Source: Rhodovarius crocodyli
GTDB lineage: Bacteria > Pseudomonadota > Alphaproteobacteria > Acetobacterales > Acetobacteraceae
Assembly (NCBI RefSeq): GCF_004005855.1
Contig: NZ_SACL01000007.1
Span: 62,001-126,000, forward strand
DNA length: 64,000 bases
Reading direction: 5' to 3'
Made by a program: the position numbers and the translations under genes. Under the pieces are notes generated by a model. It was not told the DNA's origin and searched no databases. It saw only the letters and a program-made list of their open reading frames with translations. Positions 25,250 through 37,458 of this stretch are shown here, in pieces. Position 1 is the stretch's first letter; each line of letters begins with the position of its first letter.

Positions 25250-26212
25250 TTACTCGGGCTGGATGTTGAGCTGGCGGGCCAGGGCGCTCCAGCGCTCGGC
25301 GTCCTCGGCGATGGTGCGCGCGAAGGCGGCGGGGGTGATCATGGCCGGGATCACGTCCATGGCCCGCATTTCCGCCAGGCCCGGCCCGGACAGGAAGGCG
25401 CCCGCCAGCGCCTGCTGGATGCGGGTCGCGATCGCCTCGGGCAGGCCGGCGGGGGCCACCAGCCCGTACCAGAAGGCGGCATCGAAGCCGCGCACGCCCA
25501 GGCTCTCGAAGGTCGGCACATTCGGCATCAGCGCGGAGGGGCGGGTGAGGGCGAAGGCCTTCAGCTTGCCGTCCGCCACCAGCGCGGAGGAGCCGGGCGG
25601 GTTGTCCAGCAGCACGGCCACCGTGCCGTTCATCAGGTCCGGATAGACCTGCGACGAACCGCGATAGGGCACATGGCCCATCTGCGTGCCGGTCAGCAGT
25701 TCAAGCTGGCGCGTCAGCAGGTAGCCGAGGGTGGAGACGCCGACCGAGGCGAAGTTGATCTGCCCCGGATTGGCGCGCACCCGGGCCAGGAAGCCGTTCA
25801 GGTCATCGGCGCCCGCGGCGCTGCCGCCGACCAGCACATAGGGCGTGTTGCCCAGCAGGGTGATGGCGCTGAAGGAGCTGACGGGGTTGTAGGGCACGTC
25901 CCGCCGCAGCACCGGCGCCACCGGGTGGCTACTGGTGGTGGCCAGGCCCAGTGTGTAGCCGTCCGGGGCGGCGCGGGCCACCGCCTCGCTGCCCACCGTG
26001 CCGCCGGCGCCGGGGCGGTTCTCGATGACCACGGGCTGGCCCAGCGCCTCGGAAAGCCGGCGCATCGCGAGCCGCGCCACGGCATCGGTGCCCCCGCCCG
26101 GCGGCAGGGGCACGATGCAGCGGATGGGGCGGCTGGGCCAGGATTCCTGGGCAAGGGCCGGGGCGGCCAGCACGGTGCCGGCCAGGACCGCGCGGCGAGA
26201 GATCTGCTGCAT
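25250..26212 (-). CDS. Bug/TctC-family periplasmic binding protein
   Basis: 320 residues, signal peptide MQQISRRAVLAGTVLAAPALA with an RR pair (Tat-like). Bug signature: WPSRPIRCIVPLPPGGGTDAVARLA and ENRPGAGGTVGSEAVARAAPDGY; ARVRANPGQINFASVG in the middle. It heads the unit with the class II aldolase and a GntR regulator, and its promoter region holds a strong GntR-type palindrome shared with the divergent HutC-type regulator. No tripartite membrane components are seen. Confidence 0.9.
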   Translation of the reverse strand: MQQISRRAVLAGTVLAAPALAQESWPSRPIRCIVPLPPGGGTDAVARLAMRRLSEALGQPVVIENRPGAGGTVGSEAVARAAPDGYTLGLATTSSHPVAPVLRRDVPYNPVSSFSAITLLGNTPYVLVGGSAAGADDLNGFLARVRANPGQINFASVGVSTLGYLLTRQLELLTGTQMGHVPYRGSSQVYPDLMNGTVAVLLDNPPGSSALVADGKLKAFALTRPSALMPNVPTFESLGVRGFDAAFWYGLVAPAGLPEAIATRIQQALAGAFLSGPGLAEMRAMDVIPAMITPAAFARTIAEDAERWSALARQLNIQPE

Positions 26213-26289
26213 CGGCGTCTCTTTCCTGATGTGACTCGCCTCTCCCGGTGAGAGGCGGAATCTGCCATAACCGGAGCAGTGATGACTGC

Positions 26290-26309
26290 TTGTCCGGTAT
26301 ACCAGACAA
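26290..26309. promoter_or_regulatory. Near-perfect 20-bp operator palindrome
   Basis: TTGTCCGGTATACCAGACAA reads the same on the other strand except for one C/T mismatch pair. It lies between the divergent Bug operon and the HutC-type GntR gene, ending 15 bp before the GTG start, so it probably binds that regulator and controls both directions. Confidence 0.7.
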
Positions 26310-26324
26310 CTTTAGTGAGGGCGT

Positions 26325-27047
26325 GTGAAACCGCAAGTTCCAAAATACGTCACCATCAAGGCCCTGCTGCAGGCGCGGTGGGAGCGTGAGATGCTGCGCG
26401 GAGACCGCCTGCCGTCGGAGAAGGAGCTGTGCGAGCAGTTCCAGGTCAGCCGCGCCACGGTGCAGCAGGCCCTTGCGCTGTTCGAGCAGGAAGGGCTGAT
26501 CCGCCGCGACCAGGGGCGCGGCAGCTTCTACATCGGCCCCCAGGAGCCCCGGACCCGCCAGGAGCCCAGCCGCCCGCTGGAAGCCGTGATCCGCGACCGC
26601 GACGGCACCGAGACCCGCGTGCTGCGCCGGGGCATCGAGCGCCCGCCCGCCCGGGTGGCCGCCCTGCTGGGGCTGCCGCGCGATGAGCGCGTTGTGGTGC
26701 TGGAGCGCCTGGGCCTGGTCGAGGGCGCGCCGCTCGTCTTCATCTACAGCTACCTGCCCATGGCCGTGGGCCAGCGCCTGCTGGAGAGCGAGGCGGAGAT
26801 GAGCCAGATGAGCCTGGCCTCCGTGCTGAACGACCGCCATGGCGCGGGCATCGACCGGGTGGACCAGGTGATCGCGGCCCGCCTGTCGGACCCCATGTTC
26901 GCGCAGGAGCTTGGCGTGGATGTCGGCGTGCCGGTGCTGGAGGGCGAGCGCGTCTACTATGCCGGCGAAAGGCCGGTGTTCTGCGCGCTGTCCTATTACC
27001 GCGGCGACCGGCACTACTTCACCCTGTCGGTGAAGGACTGGCGGTAA
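26325..27047 (+). CDS. GntR-family HutC/UTRA transcriptional regulator
   Basis: 240 residues from a GTG start with GAGGG just upstream. N-terminal wHTH is clear (REMLRGDRLPSEKELCEQFQVSRATVQQAL, then LIRRDQGRGSFYIG). The C-terminal UTRA ligand domain covers about residues 90-235. It diverges from the Bug-aldolase-GntR operon and sits above the binding-protein/flavin-monooxygenase genes on its own strand; either side may be its target, with autoregulation through the palindrome at its promoter. Confidence 0.88.
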   Translation: MKPQVPKYVTIKALLQARWEREMLRGDRLPSEKELCEQFQVSRATVQQALALFEQEGLIRRDQGRGSFYIGPQEPRTRQEPSRPLEAVIRDRDGTETRVLRRGIERPPARVAALLGLPRDERVVVLERLGLVEGAPLVFIYSYLPMAVGQRLLESEAEMSQMSLASVLNDRHGAGIDRVDQVIAARLSDPMFAQELGVDVGVPVLEGERVYYAGERPVFCALSYYRGDRHYFTLSVKDWR

Positions 27048-27062
27048 AATTTCGAAAATCCA

Positions 27063-27090
27063 TTGACGCCTTCCCCCGATCCCCTAGGCT
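27063..27090 (+). promoter_or_regulatory. Candidate sigma-70 promoter for the binding-protein operon
   Basis: TTGACG, a 16-bp spacer and TAGGCT stand 58 bp before the ATG of the binding-protein gene. A TTTCGAAA palindrome lies just upstream at 27050-27057 and could be a regulator site. Assigned by eye only. Confidence 0.4.
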
Positions 27091-27147
27091 GGCCTCCAGG
27101 AAACGCGACAATCGCGGCGTGACATCCAGGCTTTCGGGGGCATCAGG

Positions 27148-28731
27148 ATGATTGGACGCAGAGGCGCGCTGGCTACGGCGGGCGCCATGACGATGGGCGC
27201 GCCCGCCCTGGTGGCGGCGCAGTCGGATCGGGTGGTGCGGTTCATTCCGCAGACGGATATCACCAGCTACGATCCGATCTTCAGCTCGACGCAGGTGACG
27301 CGGAACTACGCGTATCTCGTCTACGACACGCTGTTCGGCCTGGATAAGAACCTGCTGCCGCAGCCGCAGATGGCCGAGGGCTATACGGTCGAGAACGACC
27401 AGACGCTCTGGACCATCAAGCTGCGCGCCGGGCTGATGTTCCATGACGGCACCCCGGTGCTGGCGCGGGACTGCGTGGCGAGCATCCGCCGCTGGGGCGG
27501 GCGCGACAGCTTCGGCCGCCTGCTGATGGCCGCGACCGACGAGCTGACCGCGACCGACGACCGCACCATCGTCTTCCGCATGAAGCGGCCTTTCCCGCTG
27601 CTGACCTTCGGCCTCGCGAAATCCACCGCCCAGGCCATGGTCGTGATGCCGGAGCGTCTGTCCAACACCCCGGGCCACACCCAGGTGACGGAGGTCGTGG
27701 GCAGCGGCCCCTACAAGTTCATGCGCGAGCAGAGCGTGACCGGCGCGCGCATCGTCTTTGCGAAGAACGACGCCTACCGCCCGCGTGAGGGCGGAGAGCT
27801 GGGCTGGACCGCCGGCCCCAAGGTCGCGCATTTCGAGCGCGTCGAGTGGGTGATCATCCCCGATGCGGCCACCGCCGCGGGCGCGCTGCAGAATGGTGAG
27901 GTCGATTGGTGGGAAACCCCCACGCCGGACTACCTGCCGCTGCTGTCGCGCCGGCGCGAGGTGAAGGTGGAGGTCAACGATCCCTCCGGCGGCCTGCCGA
28001 TCATGCGCTTCAACTTCCTGCACGCGCCGTTCAACAACCCCGAAATCCGCCGCCTGGTGCTGGCCGGCACCAGCCAGCTGGAATTCATGCACGCCATGGC
28101 GGGCACGGACCCCAGCCATTTCCGCACCGGCGTGGGCTTCTTCCCGCCCGGCACGCCCTATGCGTCCGAGGTGGGCACGGGCGCGCAGGTGAATGAGCCC
28201 GACATCGCGCGCATCAAGCAGCAGATCATCGATGCCGGGTACAAGGGTGAGCGCATCGTCGTGATGGGCCCGGCCGACCGTGCCTCGGTGAAGGCAGCCA
28301 GCGACGTCGCGGCCGACATGCTCACGCGGCTCGGCTTCAACGTGGACTACCAGATCGCGGATTGGGGCACCGTCAGTGCGCGCGCCGTGAAGAAGGAGCC
28401 GGTGGAGCAGGGCGGCTGGAGCGTCTATTTCGGCATCTGGTCGGGGCTTTCCTGCATTAACCCGGCCGTGCACCAGTCCCTTCAGGGCACCGGCGCCAAT
28501 GCCTGGACCGGCTGGCCCGACCTGCCTGAGCTGGAGGCGCTGCGCCAATCCTGGCTGAGCGCGCCGGATCTGGCGACGCAGCAGCGCATCGCCGCCGCGA
28601 TCCAGGAACAGTCCTACAAGGACGTGCCCTATGTGCCGCTCGGCCAGTTCTTCGCGCCCGTGGCCTATCGCCGGAACCTGACCGGCATGGTCACCGGCTT
28701 CCCTGTGTTCTGGAACGTGAAACGAGGCTGA
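27148..28731 (+). CDS. Orphan periplasmic substrate-binding protein, family 5
   Basis: 527 residues with signal peptide MIGRRGALATAGAMTMGAPALVAA (RR pair, Tat-like). The SBP-5 pattern is present: RFIPQTDITSYDPIFSS, YLVYDTLFGLDKN, WTIKLRAGLMFHDGTPVLARDCVASIRRW. Unlike the family 5 protein at 16608 it has no permease or ATPase genes beside it; the next gene, four bases later, is a flavin monooxygenase. Binds a peptide-like or xenobiotic solute, presumably the substrate of that monooxygenase, for a transporter encoded elsewhere. Confidence 0.88.
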   Translation: MIGRRGALATAGAMTMGAPALVAAQSDRVVRFIPQTDITSYDPIFSSTQVTRNYAYLVYDTLFGLDKNLLPQPQMAEGYTVENDQTLWTIKLRAGLMFHDGTPVLARDCVASIRRWGGRDSFGRLLMAATDELTATDDRTIVFRMKRPFPLLTFGLAKSTAQAMVVMPERLSNTPGHTQVTEVVGSGPYKFMREQSVTGARIVFAKNDAYRPREGGELGWTAGPKVAHFERVEWVIIPDAATAAGALQNGEVDWWETPTPDYLPLLSRRREVKVEVNDPSGGLPIMRFNFLHAPFNNPEIRRLVLAGTSQLEFMHAMAGTDPSHFRTGVGFFPPGTPYASEVGTGAQVNEPDIARIKQQIIDAGYKGERIVVMGPADRASVKAASDVAADMLTRLGFNVDYQIADWGTVSARAVKKEPVEQGGWSVYFGIWSGLSCINPAVHQSLQGTGANAWTGWPDLPELEALRQSWLSAPDLATQQRIAAAIQEQSYKDVPYVPLGQFFAPVAYRRNLTGMVTGFPVFWNVKRG

Positions 28732-28735
28732 CCCC

Positions 28736-30070
28736 ATGCCCATGGTCCTCGCCGCCAACGCCAACGCCTCCGGCAGCCATGTCGGCGAGTGGCGCCACCC
28801 GACCGCCTGGAACAACCCGGCGGCCAATATCGAGAACGCCAAGCGCCTGGCGCAGATCGCGGAGGCCGGGAAGTTCGACCTGATCTTCCTGGCGGACGGC
28901 AACGGCGTGCGCCAGCTCGACAAGCCCGCCCTGTTCGCGGCCACCAGCCCGTCCGACCGGCCCGGCGTGTTCGAGCCGGTGACGCTGCTCTCGGCGCTAT
29001 CGATGGTGACGAGCCATATCGGCCTCGTGGCCACCGCCACCACCACCTATGACGAGCCCTTCCATGTGGCGCGGCGCTTCGCCTCGCTGGATCATCTCAG
29101 CGGCGGGCGCGCGGGGTGGAACCTGGTCACCACCTCCAACCCCGACGACGCGCTCAACTTCTCCCACACGGAGCATATGGAGCGCGGCAACCGCTACGAA
29201 CGTGCGGCCGAATTCGCCGATGTGGTGAAGGGGCTGTGGGACAGTTGGGACGACGGCGCCTTCCCGCAGGACAAGGAAGCCGGCCAGTTCCTGGTGCCGG
29301 AGAAAGTGCATGTGCTGGCGCATAAGGGCACGCATTTCCAGGTGCGCGGCCCGCTGAACGCGCCGCGCCCGCCGCAGGGCCACCCGCTGATCTTCTCGGC
29401 CGGCCAGTCCGAGACGGGCAAGGACCTGTCCGCCCAGCATGCCGATTGCGTCTTCGCGATCGAGGGCAGCATGCCCGCGGCCCAGCGCCTGTATGCCGAC
29501 ATCAAGGGCCGGCTGCCGAAATTCGGGCGCACCGCCGATGACATGCGCATCCTGTCGGGTGTCACCATCTTCGTGGGTGAGACGGCCGAGGAAGCCGAGG
29601 CGCTGTTCCAGCAGCTTGAGGACCTCGTCTCACCGGCCGTGGGCGTCGACTATCTGTCGAAGATGCTGGGCCGGAAAATGCAGGGCTATGCGCTGGATGA
29701 GCCCATGCCGAAATTCGACGAGGAGCATGTGGGCCACACCGGCATCGGCAAGGCCATCCTGAACATGGCCTATGAGGAAGGGCTGACGGTGCGGCAGACC
29801 TATCGCCGCATCCTGCCGCAGATGGGCGGCAACATGTTCAAGGGCGACGCGAAGCAGATCGCTGACACCATGGAGGAATGGTACACCACCAAGGCCTGCG
29901 ACGGCTTCATGATCGCGGCCCCGGTGGTGCCGACGGGGCTTGAGCGCTTCATCAGGCTGGTGGTGCCGGAGCTGCAGAAGCGCGGCCTGTTCCGCAAGGA
30001 GTATGAGGGCACCACCCTGCGCGACAATCTGGGCCTCGGCCGGCCGGCGAACCGCTTCTTCGCCGCCTGA
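28736..30070 (+). CDS. Flavin-dependent monooxygenase, NtaA/SnaA/DszA type
   Basis: 444 residues, bacterial luciferase-like fold of the nitrilotriacetate-monooxygenase group. Recognisable parts: HPTAWNNPAANIENAKRLA at the N terminus, FDLIFLADG, SLDHLSGGRAGWNLVTTSN (FMN phosphate and active-site region) and PLIFSAGQSETGKDLSAQHAD. It needs FMNH2 from a separate reductase, which is not encoded here. Four bases separate it from the binding-protein gene, so uptake and oxidation of the same compound is likely. Typical substrates are aminopolycarboxylates or sulphur heterocycles; the one here is unknown. Confidence 0.88.
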   Translation: MPMVLAANANASGSHVGEWRHPTAWNNPAANIENAKRLAQIAEAGKFDLIFLADGNGVRQLDKPALFAATSPSDRPGVFEPVTLLSALSMVTSHIGLVATATTTYDEPFHVARRFASLDHLSGGRAGWNLVTTSNPDDALNFSHTEHMERGNRYERAAEFADVVKGLWDSWDDGAFPQDKEAGQFLVPEKVHVLAHKGTHFQVRGPLNAPRPPQGHPLIFSAGQSETGKDLSAQHADCVFAIEGSMPAAQRLYADIKGRLPKFGRTADDMRILSGVTIFVGETAEEAEALFQQLEDLVSPAVGVDYLSKMLGRKMQGYALDEPMPKFDEEHVGHTGIGKAILNMAYEEGLTVRQTYRRILPQMGGNMFKGDAKQIADTMEEWYTTKACDGFMIAAPVVPTGLERFIRLVVPELQKRGLFRKEYEGTTLRDNLGLGRPANRFFAA

Positions 30071-30097
30071 TAACCGTTCCGGGGCTGGCGCGTTACG

Positions 30098-30125: not shown

Positions 30126-31163
30126 ATGTCGGACCCCGTTCTCGCTTCTCCCATCGCCAGCCACGGTGCCGCCACCCTCACCAGCGTCACCGTGGATGCC
30201 TATAACGCCGAGCTGCGCGACAAGGACGGCTTCCTGGGTGACCGCGCGAGCCGCCGCGCCTTCTGGTCCATCCTGGACCAGTGGCGCGACAAGCTGGACG
30301 GCGACGACCCGTTCGGTGAGGCCGAGACCGCCGATATCTCCAAGCGCAAGCTGGACAAGCTGCTGACCGATGAGCGCCCGGAGGCCGTGGCCTTCGTCCA
30401 TGGCGTGATCGAGGAATTCGCGCAGGAGCTGGCCGGCGTCACCCGACGCTTCCTGAAGCTGAAGGGCTGGAAGGATACCCAGCGTATCGTGGTCGGCGGC
30501 GGCATGAGCGGCAGCCGCGCGGGGCAGATCGCCATCGCCCGCGCCTCCCTGCTGCTGAAGGCAGAGGCGCTGGGGGTGGAGTTGCGCCCCATCACCCATG
30601 AACCCGACCAGGCCGCGCTGATCGGCGCCGTGCACCTGGCGCCCAGCTGGATCTTCAGCGGCCATGACAGCCTGCTGGCCGTCGATATCGGCGGCACCAA
30701 CATCCGCGCGGGGCTGGTGGAGCTGGGCAAGAAGAAGGACCAGTCGCGCACCAAGGTCGCGGGCATCGAGATCTGGCGCCACCGGGAGGATGAGCCCAGC
30801 CGCGAACAGGCCGTGGCCCGCATCGGCGCGATGCTGGAAAGCCTGGCCGCCCAGGCCAAGGCCGAGAAGCGGGCGCTGGCGCCCTTCATCGGCATCGGCT
30901 GCCCGGGCATCATCGAGGCGGACGGCCGCATCGACCGCGGCGGCCAGAACCTGCCCGGGAACTGGGAAAGCGCGCGCTTCAACCTGCCGCAGGCGCTGAC
31001 GGACATTCTGCCGAAGATCGGCGGGCACGCGACCACGGTGCTGATGCACAACGACGCGGTGCTGCAGGGATTGAGCGAAATTCCGAACATGCAGGATGTG
31101 GAACGCTGGGGGGTGATGACGATCGGGACCGGGTTGGGGAATGCGCGGTTCAGCAATCGGTAG
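30126..31163 (+). CDS. ROK-family kinase-like protein with circularly permuted motif order
   Basis: 345 residues of the sugar-kinase/HSP70 fold, but in an unusual order. The adenosine-type region that normally ends a ROK kinase comes first: a helix (EEFAQELAGVTRRFLKLKG, residues 97-115), VVGGGMSGS at 122-130, then a terminal-type IGAVHLAP at 166-173. The normally N-terminal phosphate-1 loop DIGGTNIRAG is at 187-196, followed by GIGCPGIIE (256-264), NLPGNW (275-280), the catalytic-type ND (309-310) and the phosphate-2 loop GTGLG (334-338), after which the protein ends. The CxCGxxGCxE zinc motif is absent. Whether it phosphorylates a sugar is unknown. It follows the monooxygenase by 55 bp. Confidence 0.8.
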   Translation: MSDPVLASPIASHGAATLTSVTVDAYNAELRDKDGFLGDRASRRAFWSILDQWRDKLDGDDPFGEAETADISKRKLDKLLTDERPEAVAFVHGVIEEFAQELAGVTRRFLKLKGWKDTQRIVVGGGMSGSRAGQIAIARASLLLKAEALGVELRPITHEPDQAALIGAVHLAPSWIFSGHDSLLAVDIGGTNIRAGLVELGKKKDQSRTKVAGIEIWRHREDEPSREQAVARIGAMLESLAAQAKAEKRALAPFIGIGCPGIIEADGRIDRGGQNLPGNWESARFNLPQALTDILPKIGGHATTVLMHNDAVLQGLSEIPNMQDVERWGVMTIGTGLGNARFSNR

Positions 31164-31171
31164 GCGGAGTA

Positions 31172-31421
31172 AGGCCCGGGGGGCGTTGCCCCGAGACCCC
31201 CAGTCAGGGGCTCCGCCCCTGACCACCCCGCCAGGAGATCATATCTCCTGGACCTGATATCAGCTTGGCGCCGGAGCTTCGCAGAGGCGCCGTTTTAATT
31301 ATAAAAATCAACCGCAAGTGCCCCGGGGTCCAGGGCCGCTACGGTCCTGGCGGGGATGCAAGGGGCAGCGCCCCTTGCTGGGGGTTCGGGGGCAAAGCCC
31401 CTGTTCCTACCCCCGCCCGAA
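31172..31421. repeat. Composite inverted REP-like element B
   Basis: Same design as element A. Left arm: GGGGCGTTGCCCC, GACCCCC, GTCAGGGGC/GCCCCTGAC hairpin, CACCCCGC, CCAGGAGAT/ATCTCCTGG hairpin. Right arm on the minus strand: GGGGCTTTGCCCC, GAACCCCC, GCAAGGGGC/GCCCCTTGC, ATCCCCGC, then a hairpin with CCAGGACC and GGCCCTGG. The core has a GGCGCC pair and an AT-rich TTTTAATTATAAAAA stretch. The right arm overlaps the last codons of the hyuB gene. No coding capacity seen. Confidence 0.75.
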
Positions 31422-33353
31422 ATTCTTCTCTCGCCTGATCACATCCGCTGCCGGGTCCTGACTGGCGCGCACCTTGGCGAACAGATGCCGCTTCAGCCGC
31501 CCGCGCCAGGCGCTGGGCACTTCGGCCATCGCCTCGCCCATCGCGGCATAGGCGCTCGCGTCCCAGCGGGCTTCGTGGGCGGCACGGTTGGGGCCGCCGT
31601 CGAAGCCCTCGCGGGCGGGCTGCTGCGCGCGCAGGGCCTCGGTGGCGGCCGTGTCCACGGCGCCATCCGCGATCACCACGCCATAGTCGCGCGCGGCGGC
31701 CTCGGTGGTCACGCGGCCGGCCTGCCAGTCGCGCAGCACGGCCTCGGGCTTGCGGGTCATCGGGTCACCGCGCCCGCCGCCGCCCGGCGAGACGATGCGC
31801 ACCACATCGCCCGGGGCGGGGTTCAGGATATCGGTGTTGCGCAGATCGTGCTCGTTCGCGGCACCCGGGTTCAGGGTGAAGCTGCTGGCAGCACCCGGCC
31901 GGCCGCCCAGGATGCCCCAGGGCTGGAAGATGGAGCGGTCGCGGTTGCGGGCCGTCACGGTGGCATCCGGGGCGTCGGTGGTGAATTCCAGCACGGTGGC
32001 CAGGCCCCCGCGATGCGCGCCCGGGCCGCCCGTATCCGGCATCAGGCCATAGCGCAGGATGCGGATGGCGGCCTCGGCCTCGGTGATCTCGATCGGGCTG
32101 TTCTTCAGATAGGCCGCATCGGCGCCGGACCCGTCGGTGCCGTCACGATGCGGCATGCCGCCGCCGCCGCCCACGATGGGGGCGATGGCGGAAATCACGC
32201 GGCGGCCGGTGCGGCGGTTCTCGGCCGCCAGGTTGATGATGGAGGAGGAACCGGCGGGGGCGGCCGGCAGGCGCTCGGGCGCTGCCTGGGCAAAGGCGCC
32301 GAAGACCAGGCTGCGCAGCCGCGCGCAGGTCAGGCTGCGCATGCCCACAGCGGCCGGGTGCGCCGGGTTCACCACGCTGCCCTCGGGCAGGATGCAGGTG
32401 AAGGCGCGGACGGTCCCGAAGTTCAGCGTTATCTTGGGGCTCAGCGCCGACAGCACGTAGTACACGCCCACCAGCACCAGCGAATGATGCGGATGCCCGC
32501 CGGTGGGCACATTCATCGAGCACAGGGTCTGCGGGTCGGTGCCGGTGAAGTCCAGCTCCGCGCTGTCGCCCTGGATGCGCAGGGCGAGCTTCAGCCGCAG
32601 CGGGTCGCCGCCCACGCCGTCCTCGTCGCAATAGTCGGCGAAGTGATAGGTACCGTCGGGCAGGCTGGCCAGCACGGCACGGGCCTGGGCCTCGCCGTAA
32701 TCCAGCAGATCGGCCAGCCCGTCCTTCAGCGTCTCGACGCCGAAGCGGCGGGCGAGTTCCAGGATACGCCTCTCACCGGTGTTCACGGCGGCGACCAGCG
32801 CCTTCAGGTCGCCCCAGTTCTGCTCGGGCACGCGCACATTGGCGGTGATTGTCCGCAGCAGCGTCTCGTCCAGCACGCCCGCGCGATACAGCTTGCTGGG
32901 CGGGATGCGCAGCCCTTCCTGATGCACCTCGGTCAGGGTGCGGGAGAGGCTGGCGGGCACCGCGCCGCCCACGTCCACATTGTGGATATGCCCGCCGGCG
33001 AAGGCGATGATCTCGCCCTCATGGAACACCGGCTTCCACATGTTGGTGTCGGGCGAATGGGTGGACAGAAACCCGGAATACGGGTCGCTGGTCATGCAGA
33101 TGTCGCCGGGCTCATAGCCACCGGGCACCAGCTTGATCGCGTCCTCATAATCCACGCCGGGATACCAGGTGGCGCCCAGGTCCAGCGGCACGGCGCAGGT
33201 CTTGCCGTGGCGGTCCAGCAGCTGGATCGTGAAGTCCTCGGTTTCCTTCACGAAGGTGGAATGCGCGGTGCGGTAGAGCGTGGTGGCCATGCTCTCGGCG
33301 GCGGCGCGACAATGGTTGCGCAGCACCTGAAGGGTGACGGGATCGGTGCGCAT
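31407..33353 (-). CDS. hyuB: Hydantoinase/oxoprolinase-type subunit B (first twin pair)
   Basis: 648 residues, longer than the HyuB at 11071. Starts TDPVTLQVLRNHCRAAAESMA and contains YRTAHSTFVKETEDFTIQLLD, the conserved N-terminal region of HyuB; GGGGRGDPMTRKPEAVLRDW is the C-terminal glycine-rich segment. About 60 additional C-terminal residues follow. Its ATG overlaps the TGA of the HyuA gene (ATGA), so the two subunits are made in a coupled way. The final codons run into REP-like element B. Confidence 0.87.
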   Translation of the reverse strand: MRTDPVTLQVLRNHCRAAAESMATTLYRTAHSTFVKETEDFTIQLLDRHGKTCAVPLDLGATWYPGVDYEDAIKLVPGGYEPGDICMTSDPYSGFLSTHSPDTNMWKPVFHEGEIIAFAGGHIHNVDVGGAVPASLSRTLTEVHQEGLRIPPSKLYRAGVLDETLLRTITANVRVPEQNWGDLKALVAAVNTGERRILELARRFGVETLKDGLADLLDYGEAQARAVLASLPDGTYHFADYCDEDGVGGDPLRLKLALRIQGDSAELDFTGTDPQTLCSMNVPTGGHPHHSLVLVGVYYVLSALSPKITLNFGTVRAFTCILPEGSVVNPAHPAAVGMRSLTCARLRSLVFGAFAQAAPERLPAAPAGSSSIINLAAENRRTGRRVISAIAPIVGGGGGMPHRDGTDGSGADAAYLKNSPIEITEAEAAIRILRYGLMPDTGGPGAHRGGLATVLEFTTDAPDATVTARNRDRSIFQPWGILGGRPGAASSFTLNPGAANEHDLRNTDILNPAPGDVVRIVSPGGGGRGDPMTRKPEAVLRDWQAGRVTTEAAARDYGVVIADGAVDTAATEALRAQQPAREGFDGGPNRAAHEARWDASAYAAMGEAMAEVPSAWRGRLKRHLFAKVRASQDPAADVIRREKNFGRG

Positions 33354-35368
33354 CAGACGTTCTCCATCACGAGGTTGCCGAGCGCGTCGGTTTCCGCGCT
33401 CCAGCCAGGGGGCACCAGCACGGTGCAGTCGGATTGGGTGACGATGGCGGGGCCGGTGAAACGCCCGCCGGGGTTCAGTGCTGCGCGGCGATACAGCCCC
33501 GCCTGGCGCGTGGCGCCACCCATGGTCAGCGGCACCAGCTTTTCCGGGGTTTCCTCATGCTCGCCGCCCGGGTTGGACAGGAAGGGCAGGGGAGGCGCCG
33601 CGCGGCGGGCGACGGCTCGCAGGCTGACCACCTCGACGGGGGCGCCGGGCTCGCTGTGGCCGAAGGCTTCCTCATGCGCCGCGTGGAAGTTCTCGGCGAG
33701 CGCCGCGATGCTGTCGCCGGCGGGCACGGTCAGCTCGAAGGACTGGCCGCGATAGCGCAGATCGGCGGCCAGCGTCGTCTCGGCCTCACCCGCGCCGCCC
33801 ATCTCGGCGAGCGCCGCCCCGGCCTCGGCGGCAAGCTCCGCCAGGCCGGACTGGATGGTGGGCCAGAAGGCGGGTTCCAGCGGCATCAGCACGGTGCGCA
33901 TGGTGTCGCGCCGCAGGTCCGCGGCCAGGGCGCCCAGCGCGCACAGCGTGCCGGGCACGGGCGGCACCAGCACGCGGCGGATGCCGGCGGTCTCCGCCAG
34001 CAGCGCGCCCAGCATGGGGCCGGCGCCGCCGAAGGGCATCAGCGTCAGCTCGCTGGCATGCATGCCAGCGCGGGCCAGCAGCTTGTCGATCTCGACCAGC
34101 ATGCCGCTGATGGCCACCTGCAGCACGCCCTCCGCAGCACCGGCGGCGTCGGTCTTGAGCGCCGCGGCGATGGGGGCGATCGCCTTTTCCGACAGGGACT
34201 TGTCAGGCGCGATGGCGCCGAAGCCCAGCTCGCCCTGGCCCAGGATGCCGCAGAGCAGCGCGGCGTCGGTCACGGTGCAGCGTTCGCCCCCGCGCCCGAA
34301 ACAGGCCGGGCCGGGGGTGGAGCCGGCGCTCTCGGGCCCCACCTGCAGCACGCCCTGCGCGTCGATCCGCGCGATGGACCCGCCGCCCTGGCCGCTGGAG
34401 ACGACCGCGACGCTCGGGATGGAGAGCGGGAAGTCGCCGATATTGTGCCCCGTGCCGAAGGCGGGGCGCCCGTCGATCAGCAGGGCCACATCGGCGCTGG
34501 TGCCGCCGACATCCAGCGTCAGCACGGCACCCACGCCGGCGGCCTTCGCCACCACGCCGGCACCGACGACGCCCGAGGCCGTGCCCGACAGCAGCATGCC
34601 CACGCAGTCCCGCCGGCCGCGCTGCGCCGTCATGGTGCCGCCGGCCGAGGTGGTCAGCAGCAGCGGCGCCGCGATGGCGGCCGCGCGCAGCTGGTTCTCC
34701 ACCCGCTCCAGATAGGCATCGATGCGCGGGTGCACATAGGCGTTCAGCACGGCGGTCGTCGTGCGCTCATACTCGCGGATGGCGGGCCAGACCTCGGCGC
34801 CATGGAAGGTGAACAGGTCGGGCGCGATCTCGTTGATCATCGCGACCACCGCGCGCTCATGCGCATCATTGCGCCAGGCGTGCAGGAAGGAGACGACGAT
34901 GCCCCGGGCGCCCGCGGCCTGGGCGGCGGAGACGGCGGCGGCCACGCTGTCGCGCTCAGGGGCCAGGACGGTGTTGCCCTCGGCATCCATGCGCTCGGCG
35001 ATGCCGAACACGTGCTCGCGCGGCACCAGCGGCTCCGGGCGCTCGCAGAACAGGCTGTAGGTGTCGGGCATGCGCAGGCGTGCCAGCTCCAGCATGTCCG
35101 TGAAGCCCTGGGTGGTGAACAGCGCCAGCGGCGCGCCCCTGCGCTGGATGATGGTGTTCACGCCCACCGTGGTGCCGTGCACGAAGCGCTCCACCGCGGC
35201 GGGCACCAGCCCTTCGGCCGTCAGGCGGCGCAGCCCCTCGGCCACGTCGTCGCCCGGGGCGTTGGGGGTGGTCAGCACCTTCAGCGTGCGCAGATCGCCC
35301 GTGTCGGTGTCGAGCGCGGTGAAATCCGCGAAGGTGCCGCCGATATCCACGCCGATACGCCAAGCCAT
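33353..35368 (-). CDS. hyuA: Hydantoinase/oxoprolinase-type subunit A (first twin pair)
   Basis: 671 residues. The first phosphate loop is DIGGTFADF, with Ala where most HyuA have Thr (GGTFTD); HGTTVGVNTIIQR and the second loop DVGGTSADVALL are canonical. C-terminal LMPFGGAGPML is present. Encodes one subunit of an ATP-dependent amidohydrolase with the HyuB immediately downstream. No transporter adjoins this pair. Substrate unknown; hydantoins, pyroglutamate and related lactams are the known substrates of the family, while acetone/acetophenone carboxylases are related but have extra subunits. Confidence 0.87.
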   Translation of the reverse strand: MAWRIGVDIGGTFADFTALDTDTGDLRTLKVLTTPNAPGDDVAEGLRRLTAEGLVPAAVERFVHGTTVGVNTIIQRRGAPLALFTTQGFTDMLELARLRMPDTYSLFCERPEPLVPREHVFGIAERMDAEGNTVLAPERDSVAAAVSAAQAAGARGIVVSFLHAWRNDAHERAVVAMINEIAPDLFTFHGAEVWPAIREYERTTTAVLNAYVHPRIDAYLERVENQLRAAAIAAPLLLTTSAGGTMTAQRGRRDCVGMLLSGTASGVVGAGVVAKAAGVGAVLTLDVGGTSADVALLIDGRPAFGTGHNIGDFPLSIPSVAVVSSGQGGGSIARIDAQGVLQVGPESAGSTPGPACFGRGGERCTVTDAALLCGILGQGELGFGAIAPDKSLSEKAIAPIAAALKTDAAGAAEGVLQVAISGMLVEIDKLLARAGMHASELTLMPFGGAGPMLGALLAETAGIRRVLVPPVPGTLCALGALAADLRRDTMRTVLMPLEPAFWPTIQSGLAELAAEAGAALAEMGGAGEAETTLAADLRYRGQSFELTVPAGDSIAALAENFHAAHEEAFGHSEPGAPVEVVSLRAVARRAAPPLPFLSNPGGEHEETPEKLVPLTMGGATRQAGLYRRAALNPGGRFTGPAIVTQSDCTVLVPPGWSAETDALGNLVMENV

Positions 35369-35475
35369 GCCGAAATCACCTCAAATGACTGAGGCGCAGC
35401 ATGGCCGGGCGCGGCGCGGGGCGCGAGTTCCGATGCGGGCGCGCGTGATAGCCTGCGGTTATACGCGCGCCGGGC

Positions 35476-37458
35476 TCACTCGGCCGCCAGGGCTTCGTCC
35501 AGCCCGTGCTTGCGGCGCATGTCCTCGGCCAGGCGGCGCATCTGGGCGCGCTCGCCGAGTTCGGCATGGGTGCCGGCGGCGACGGCGCGGAAGAACTCGC
35601 CCTTCAGGTAGTGGCGCCACTGCACCGGCAGCTGCGCCAGGGCCGTGGTCATTTCCTCATAGCGCGCGCGGGTCCAGACCGCCTCGAAGGCATCGCGCCT
35701 CGCGCCATAGTCGAAGCCCTGGCGCGGGGTGTGGCCGGCGCGCAGGGCCAGCGTCGCGGCGCTGTCCACCGCGCCGTCCACGATCGCCACGCCATAGTCG
35801 CGCGCGGCGGCCTCCATGGAGACGAAGCCGCGCTTCACATCGGTCAGCACCGCCTCTGGCGCACGGGCGAAGGCATCGCCATAGCCGCCCGCGCCCGGGC
35901 CGATGACGCGGACGATGTCGCCCGGGTTGCACTTCACCAGGTCGGTGTTGCCCAGGCTCAGTTCCTCGGGCGTGCCGGGGTTGCGCAGGAAGCGCGAGGT
36001 ATTGCCCGCCCGCCCGCCGCAGGCGCCCCAGGATTGGAACACCGACCTGTTGCGGTTGCGCGCCGTGACGACGGAGCCAGGCGAGAACACCTGGAACTCC
36101 ATCACCGCCGCCAGGCCGCCGCGATACTGGCCGGGGCCCGCGCTGTCGCGTTCCAGCCCATAGCGCAGGATGCGGATAGGCACCTCGGCCTCGTTGATCT
36201 CGACCGGCGTGTTCTTCAGGAAGGCCTGGGCGCCGCCCGCGCCGTTCGGCCCGTCATGCCGGGGTGTGCCGCCGCCGCCGCCGCCCACGGCACCCAGAGA
36301 GGCCATGACGGTGCGCCCGTCCCGGCCAGAGGTCCGCACGTTCAGGATGGCATTGCCGCCCGGGGAGGTGGTGGCCAGCTTCTCGGGCACCGCCTGCAGG
36401 AAGGCGCCGAACGTCACGATCTGCGTCATCATGCAGGTCAGGCTGCGCATGCCGACGGCCGCCCCCGGCTCCGCATTCACGATGGTGCCGCGCGGCAGCA
36501 CGGCGCGCGCCGGCCGCAGCGTGCCGGCATTGAGCAGCAGCTGCGGGTTCAGCGTGAACAGCACATAGGTCAGCCCCACCATCACGATCGGGTGCCGCAC
36601 CTCACCGCCCGTGGGCATGTTCAGCGAGGACGCCAGCTGCGGGTCGCTGCCGGTATAGTCCAGCTCGACCTCATCACCCTGCACCCGCACCGTGAGGGCC
36701 ATGCGGCAGGGGTTGCCGCCCTCGCCATCCTCATCGGCGTAGTCCGCGAAGAAATACTCGCCATCGGGGATGTCGCGGATGACGCGCCGCGCCTGTTCCT
36801 CGGCATAGTCCAGGATCTGCTCGATGCCCGAGGCGAAGGCCGGGTAGCCGAAGCGGGCGATGATCTCGTGGATGCGGCGTTCACCGATGTTGACGGAGGC
36901 GAATTGCGCCATCAGGTCGCCGTGGTTCTGCTCGGGCATGCGCACGTTGATGCGCAGGATCTCCATGACGTCCTGGTTGATCTCACCCCGGCGGACCAGC
37001 TTCAGCGGCGGGATGCGGATGCCTTCCTGCTCGATCTCGGTCAGCGTGCGCGACAGGCTGGCGGGCACGGCGCCGCCCACATCGGTGTTGTGGATGTGGC
37101 CCACCACGAAGCAGGCGATCTTTCCCTCATGGAACACCGGCTTCCAGATATGGATGTCGGGCGAATGGGTGCAGACATAGCCGCTGTACGGGTCGTTGGT
37201 CGCGCAGATGTCGCCTTCCTCATAGTGGTCGATCATCCGAAGCACCGGGCCGTAATCGATGCCGCTGTACCAGGGCGCGCCGAAATGCCGCGGGGAGGCG
37301 AAGGCCTTCCCATCAGGCGTGACCAGCGTGCAGGAGAAATCCTCCGTCTCCTTCACGAAGGTGGAATGCGCGGTGCGCATCAGCGTGAAGGCCATGGCAT
37401 CGGCGGCGGCCGCGCAATGATTGGCCAGGATCTGCAGGTTGCGGCGGTCGAGGCTCAT
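35476..37458 (-). CDS. hyuB: Hydantoinase/oxoprolinase-type subunit B (second twin pair)
   Basis: 660 residues. DRRNLQILANHCAAAADAMA and MRTAHSTFVKETEDFSCTLV match the first twin HyuB closely in layout, as does GAGGYGDAFARAPEAVLTDV near the C terminus with a similar extra tail of about 70 residues. The start overlaps the stop of the partner HyuA (ATGA). A gap of about 107 bp separates it from the next HyuA. The two pairs look like an old tandem duplication that has diverged in sequence. Confidence 0.87.
   Translation of the reverse strand: MSLDRRNLQILANHCAAAADAMAFTLMRTAHSTFVKETEDFSCTLVTPDGKAFASPRHFGAPWYSGIDYGPVLRMIDHYEEGDICATNDPYSGYVCTHSPDIHIWKPVFHEGKIACFVVGHIHNTDVGGAVPASLSRTLTEIEQEGIRIPPLKLVRRGEINQDVMEILRINVRMPEQNHGDLMAQFASVNIGERRIHEIIARFGYPAFASGIEQILDYAEEQARRVIRDIPDGEYFFADYADEDGEGGNPCRMALTVRVQGDEVELDYTGSDPQLASSLNMPTGGEVRHPIVMVGLTYVLFTLNPQLLLNAGTLRPARAVLPRGTIVNAEPGAAVGMRSLTCMMTQIVTFGAFLQAVPEKLATTSPGGNAILNVRTSGRDGRTVMASLGAVGGGGGGTPRHDGPNGAGGAQAFLKNTPVEINEAEVPIRILRYGLERDSAGPGQYRGGLAAVMEFQVFSPGSVVTARNRNRSVFQSWGACGGRAGNTSRFLRNPGTPEELSLGNTDLVKCNPGDIVRVIGPGAGGYGDAFARAPEAVLTDVKRGFVSMEAAARDYGVAIVDGAVDSAATLALRAGHTPRQGFDYGARRDAFEAVWTRARYEEMTTALAQLPVQWRHYLKGEFFRAVAAGTHAELGERAQMRRLAEDMRRKHGLDEALAAE

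Follow-up and report, generated by a model that had tools for sequence, protein, structure and literature searches.

The kinases of the ROK family (PF00480), such as AlsK, NanK, NagK and the glucokinase-like enzymes, are the closest described relatives of the protein that we analyse here. In canonical ROK proteins the phosphate-1 loop comes before the adenosine-side motif, and the GGG region is the last motif of the chain. Our protein is like them in carrying the DxGGT, GxxxPG, ND, GTGxG and GGG motifs and in having the same predicted fold when its halves are taken separately. Nevertheless, it does not keep their linear order, its halves being swapped, and it lacks both the ExGH motif and the CxCGxxGC zinc motif. 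The absence of the zinc motif is not exclusive to the permuted clade, because zinc-less ROK proteins are known. The NanK of Fusobacterium nucleatum (PDB 5nck) lacks the zinc-binding cysteines, as the permuted protein does, but it has the canonical order and retains the ExGH motif, including His159 (PMC5458393, in excerpt). The seven canonical-order frames of our own collection that we labelled PPGK-like are also without the zinc motif. Furthermore, the polyphosphate/ATP glucomannokinase 1woq and frame L160 have an N-x-x-x-x-W segment that resembles the NLPGNW of the permuted protein; however, 1woq and the PPGK-like frames are in canonical order, and neither the tree nor the profiles place the permuted family with them. 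Frame L160 is a canonical-order, zinc-less, polyphosphate-glucokinase-like frame of 245 aa in the same genome as the Labilithrix MAG locus L036.

More distant ASKHA kinases are the human tandem hexokinases I and II, whose duplicated lobes seem a natural doubled template, although both lobes are complete and unpermuted. The textbook route to a circular permutation is a duplication followed by the loss of the outer parts. Regarding permuted ROK proteins, none was named in the titles and abstract openings of the open-licence PMC papers that our searches listed, and a term search found none in the available excerpts of PMC12696579, PMC2213659, PMC12667903 and PMC1079889.

The gene lies at 30126-31163 on the forward strand of the window, that is, the whole stretch of 64,000 nucleotides of Rhodovarius crocodyli DNA that was analysed, and we describe it as a circularly permuted ROK-family kinase gene of 345 aa plus stop. 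All the features below are on the same strand. In the translation, the adenosine-side GGG motif (residues 124-126, 30495-30503, within VVGGGMSGS at 122-130) comes first and is followed by the DIGGTN phosphate-1 loop (187-192, 30684-30701), GIGCPG (256-261), NLPGNW (275-280), the N309-D310 pair (31050-31055) and the GTGLG phosphate-2 loop (334-338, 31125-31139). The last residues before the stop are GTGLGNARFSNR, and GTGLG ends 7 residues earlier. The chain can thus be read as four segments: a new N terminus (residues 1-68, 30126-30329) with the invariant H13, F36, G38, D39 and R54; the equivalent of the canonical C-terminal part (residues 69-173, 30330-30644), with the GGG motif, the terminal helix and the old C terminus HLAP; a linker SWIFSGHDS between the old C and the old N terminus (residues 174-182, 30645-30671, with limits that are approximate and taken from alignments); and the equivalent of the canonical N-terminal part, from the phosphate-1 to the phosphate-2 loop, as placed by Pfam and hhalign (residues 183-345, 30672-31160). 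The original prediction had put the part with the GGG motif and the terminal helix before the part from DIGGTN to GTGLG, and the translation, Pfam and 113 aligned frames all confirm this order.

The Pfam ROK profile matches the whole protein with 40.4 bits against a cut-off of 22.9, and it does so as a swapped pair of blocks, residues 184-344 falling on profile positions 2-141 and residues 44-173 on positions 182-292. The C-half alone gives an E-value of 5.3e-7. For the profile-profile comparisons we used an alignment of 37 canonical ROKs (38 were collected and one was dropped for its length), and the hhalign E-values given throughout refer to one pairwise comparison and not to a database search. 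The C-half fell on columns 16-160 (E 8.1e-13). When the canonical alignment was joined to itself, the permuted family followed it in one path, profile positions 72-353 (residues 69-345 of our protein) lying on columns 215-464, with a score of 133.9 (E 4.5e-17) against 88.1 for the undoubled alignment and 11.5-17.9 for seven controls, two reversed and five column-shuffled. The same pattern appeared in phmmer with P0001, which matched 8 canonical ROKs, three of them (L121, L122 and L123) as a pair of swapped blocks, and in the Bradyrhizobium orthologue L161, where the canonical HMM matched columns 211-303 and then 7-154. We also looked for more permuted ROKs by scanning 13 regions, mostly half-matching ROK, together with L158-L162. 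A canonical-HMM match was present in 16 of these 18 loci, and the sole one in swapped order was the already known L161. L014, which had looked like a paralogue, by eye reads as an ABC transporter ATPase.

The AlphaFold2 model from a 47-row alignment had a mean pLDDT of 91.3 and a pTM of 0.90. Among the 50 Foldseek matches listed, single ROK chains (2yhy, 2yhw, 3r8e, 4htl, 3lm2, 2qm1 and 5nck) aligned over 163-177 columns; the alignment to 2yhy, for example, is sequential and covers about half of the chain (168 columns, rmsd 2.1, TMq 0.39). The tandem-lobed human hexokinases aligned over 373-442 columns in 7 of the 8 chains listed (rmsd 31-37), the exception being 5hex_A with only 222 columns. 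These long alignments would fit a model that matches the closing part of the first lobe and the opening part of the second. DnaK, Ppx and the one-lobed human glucokinase had similar scores in the same list, and a search of the viral structure library was uninformative, returning chiefly Hsp70-like and Holliday-junction-resolvase-like folds. Sequence and model together show the swapped order, its conservation, the intact motifs and a confidently predicted fold.

Regarding conservation, we aligned 113 frames, a set that includes the window frame and some duplicates between collections; another 10 loci, which scored below 250 bits and were canonical ROKs or unrelated, were excluded. The residues G124-G126, D187, G189, G190, N309, D310, G334, T335, G336, L337 and G338 are invariant in 113/113, and residue 191 is T in 96 frames and S in 17. 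The CxCGxxGC zinc motif is in none of the 113 permuted frames, compared with 35 of 38 canonical ROKs, and any cysteine at all in the N-half was found in 20/113. The original prediction had called the protein zinc-less and this is correct, although the loss of zinc itself had already been described in the Fusobacterium NanK. The ExGH motif is present in 37/38 canonical ROKs; the string occurs in only two permuted frames (L005 and L026), around residue 151 and thus away from the expected place. Three orthologues, two from Bradyrhizobium and one from a Hyphomicrobiales MAG (L031, L083 and L093), have a lysine-rich C-terminal tail of up to about 35 residues past the conserved end.

We consider it quite probable that this is a natural circularly permuted kinase of the ROK (ASKHA) type, for which we propose the role of a stress-induced hexose kinase, perhaps serving trehalose synthesis. 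In such a protein the old termini would be bridged by the short linker, giving HLAP-SWIFSGHDS-LLAVDIGGTN, where the corresponding old ends in the canonical L123 are GAAHIA and VLAADIGGTN. The chain would have been opened past the phosphate-2 hairpin, behind the strand following GTG and near the site of the ExGH sugar-binding motif, so that the new termini probably lie beside the active site, and the usual two-domain clamp fold is expected. The GTG and GGG loops would hold the nucleotide, D187 of DIGGT would hold the metal, and D310 of the ND pair would act as the base while the gamma-phosphate is moved onto a sugar hydroxyl. These two aspartates correspond to D6 and D105 of NagK, and their expected roles as metal ligand and catalytic base are assigned by this homology; in NagK both are essential by mutation (PMC10031466, in excerpt). 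Because the phosphoryl-transfer residues are intact, an active sugar kinase is likely, and the protein probably works like other ROK kinases.

Canonical ROKs have their ExGH motif and zinc knuckle after GTG and ahead of the part equivalent to residues 69 and beyond, and residues 1-68 are the probable remnant of this region. Where the alignment is of low confidence, GFLGDRAS is in register with the canonical GCLEAYAS, and the zinc-knuckle segment has probably been retained at the new N terminus with its cysteines lost. H13 aligns two residues before the canonical histidine, again where confidence in the alignment is low, and the block 11-20 that contains it has a pLDDT of 93 in the AlphaFold model. 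Thus, being invariant and in a confidently modelled stretch, H13 may replace the ExGH histidine, and together with the invariant D39 it is a candidate to stand in for the missing ExGH and zinc-knuckle residues. As ExGH is absent at its expected place, the activity or the substrate may differ from those of canonical enzymes.

The missing ExGH motif also leaves room for a permuted ROK fold that is not a kinase but a sensor of sugars or nucleotides, or a regulator, under stress control. Repressors do occur in the ROK family (PMC4856308), and our gene stands alone, with no sugar operon common across genera. Nevertheless, non-catalytic regulators need not retain D187, G189, G190, N309, D310 and GTG, which are kept in 113/113 frames, and the only Pfam families matched by the full-length protein are ROK and Hexokinase_1, with no DNA-binding domain. 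We therefore regard a sensor or regulator as rather unlikely.

That the protein is a permuted polyphosphate-dependent glucokinase, with its origin among the zinc-less PPGK enzymes, was suggested to us by the NCBIfam counts and by 1woq, and in our judgement it is improbable. The polyphosphate-glucose phosphotransferase model NF045942 matched 32 of 47 members, the top count, but far under its cut-off (the window protein reaches 20.6 bits against an equivalog cut-off of 250), and no match over the cut-off was found in the genomes searched for it. The best PDB sequence match was 1woq (E 2.7e-4). However, neither the tree nor the subgroup comparisons support this origin. In the tree, built from sequences cut back to the canonical order, the 22 permuted rows chosen for it are monophyletic (100/100), with a long stem of 3.27 changes per column, and this clade does not group with the seven PPGK-like rows; its sister is poorly supported (52/81), being one long-branched ROK-like row and possibly false. 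Doubling the target lifted the hhalign score in 3 of 5 ROK subgroups: from 116.7 to 133.8 (E 3.4e-17) in a group that we labelled AlsK-like (L117, L119-L123, L178 and L181), from 46.6 to 78.0 in the 25 zinc ROKs and from 65.9 to 88.6 in a five-member group. In contrast, there was no gain for the PPGK-like (86.3 to 86.7) or regulator (18.3 to 18.3) alignments.

Less probable still is that an unrelated N-terminal domain was fused to a truncated ROK, namely its phosphate-binding half, so that the GGG of the N-part would be a coincidence. This would agree with the single-profile searches, in which the N-half alone stays under the Pfam ROK cut-off (E 0.017). Even with filters off, the N-half HMM reached at best E 0.0097 against the 37 canonical ROKs, the best match to PDB sequences had an E-value of 0.91, and ROK was matched at E up to 1 in only 17 of 47 members (best 0.0019). 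Other families also match a few members at E up to 1, at most 6/47 for any one of them, and hhalign of the N-half with the subgroup closest to the C-half gave only E 0.004. Since the plain HMM searches are weak, the claim for the N-half rests on the profile-profile and structural evidence. Against the 37 canonical ROKs it fell on the correct columns, 215-313, with E 1.4e-6 and a score of 48.5, the five shuffled controls scoring 11.5-14.7, and the rise from 88 to 134 on doubling also speaks against a fusion. Folded alone (residues 1-178, pLDDT 83.4), it had ROK proteins as its eight best PDB matches in Foldseek, seven sugar kinases and one ROK regulator, with weak E-values (0.0042-0.055, none below 0.001) and probabilities of 0.96-1.00; the alignment to 3vgk covered 151 columns with a TMq of 0.54. 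Furthermore, the N-half residues E96 and G167 are, like GGG, invariant in the 113 frames. Finally, the orthologues in the genome survey keep the whole length and the same order, and the gene therefore cannot be read as a truncated ROK joined to an unrelated domain. A fusion is thus largely refuted, and the permuted ROK of the original prediction is supported: both halves fall separately on the expected ROK columns, the best structural matches of residues 1-178 are ROK, if with weak E-values, and the order is kept among orthologues.

An assembly or gene-calling artefact is already refuted and hardly conceivable, as the same order is found in the best 80 of 544 loci of a GTDB genome scan, in 204 of 206 matching plasmids and, at full length, in 22 of 398 phylum genomes. 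The scan gave 544 coding stretches out of 569, and those best 80 all span at least residues 13-344 with 59-79% identity. The 204 plasmid matches cover no less than 80% of the query. Rhizobium and Sinorhizobium account for 190 of the 206 plasmids, and the database annotates the plasmid copies as 'ROK family protein' or 'hypothetical protein'. The phage records had no match. The full-length gene is in 10 of 147 relatives, a count that, like the 22/398, includes the source genome; the remaining 25 of the 47 matching phylum genomes had partial matches, mostly to the C-half, with E 1.3e-5 or worse. The distribution is patchy, because the gene is absent from the eight other genomes of its own genus that were searched. 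As the swapped order is kept in many soil and root-associated bacteria, the comparison of sequences tells us that the rearrangement is genuine and old rather than an error. The source genome holds both a permuted and a canonical ROK. Of five named carriers, three (G535, G536 and G539) have a permuted gene that PF00480 does not detect at E 0.001; in the Methylobacterium G539 no match passes at all, and in the Bradyrhizobium G538 the permuted gene is the sole ROK match.

Upstream of the window gene there is a candidate ECF/EcfG-type promoter, ATAAC-N16-CGTT (30070-30094, forward strand), whose AAC starts 54 nt upstream of the initiation codon, a distance that, like all those from motif to start, is approximate because the start codons were picked by script. 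Its -35 element differs at two bases from GGAAC, the EcfG1 motif of R. etli being GGAAC-N16-CGTT (PMC3892343, in excerpt). The strict stress motif was found upstream of 10/113 genes, compared with 0.54 in shuffles and 2 on the other strand. In a non-redundant set of 52 genes with less than 88% mutual identity, strict GGAAC-N16-18-CGTT occurred in 7 (2/731 control genes). A relaxed AAC-N16/17-CGTT pattern, which is partly post hoc as it was picked after viewing four upstream sequences, occurred in 31 of the 52 (10/713 controls, 0.24 on shuffling, 0/52 with wrong spacings) and was missing in the other 21. Regulation of the gene by EcfG would be consistent with these counts. In its own genome NepR was not found at E 0.001, and PhyR-like matches were below the cut-off only.

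Regarding the neighbours, there is no operon common to different genera. The original prediction placed the gene with a binding protein and a flavin monooxygenase; these frames are indeed present in the window, but they are not kept beside the gene in other genera. The upstream region (25253-30070) has what we take to be a Bug-type tripartite receptor-like protein on the minus strand, a GntR-like regulator, a dipeptide-type binding protein and an LLM-type flavin monooxygenase. On the other side, 31407-37458 on the minus strand is presumably a run of hydantoinase/oxoprolinase-type genes, HyuB-like (31407-33353), HyuA-like (33353-35368) and a second HyuB-like frame (about 35479-37458). In a Bradyrhizobium-rich sample, a gene for what we assume is an L21-like ribosomal protein is situated upstream, on the opposite strand, in 54/81 loci, and a presumably GNAT-like gene lies near the kinase in 53 of the 81; we considered a conserved operon here and took these neighbours as chromosome synteny instead. 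The trehalose-phosphatase gene otsB is the immediate and divergently oriented neighbour in L154 and L156 (annotated Rhizobiaceae plasmids, from Rhizobium and Shinella records), and by tblastn it is also beside the gene in L108, which is 97% identical to L154. It was not seen on two other annotated plasmids, a further record being without annotation, and tblastn did not find it in the window or in any other locus searched, many of them having only about 1.5 kb of flank.

We propose a stress-induced hexose kinase because the gene stands alone and is often behind an EcfG-like general-stress promoter. A general replacement of glucokinase was also considered: the source genome is without PF02685, but other carriers (G029, G032, G044, G057 and G103) have it, and therefore this role was rejected. 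OtsA uses glucose-6-phosphate. Trehalose synthesis is under the control of the stress sigma factor EcfG in Bradyrhizobium (PMC8092242, in excerpt). For these two reasons, a stress-induced hexokinase that would supply glucose-6-phosphate for trehalose is a reasonable conjecture, though unproven. The fuller account, in which an ancient single permutation led to a separate and widespread Pseudomonadota clade of active hexose kinases with a sugar site rebuilt out of the new N terminus, free of zinc and ExGH, and recruited to stress, for example through trehalose, is possible and we offer it tentatively.

Thus, this is a ROK protein by descent and by most of its motifs that departs from the family in its order and in two of its signature motifs. 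If a sugar kinase has been naturally permuted across its active-site clamp and this form has become fixed in many species, the ASKHA halves would not need a particular order, and the ExGH/zinc sugar site would be shown to be replaceable. Genomes with both a permuted and a canonical ROK offer a natural pair for the effects of permutation on domain closure and catalysis. Furthermore, the finding indicates a candidate stress gene in nitrogen-fixing rhizobia.
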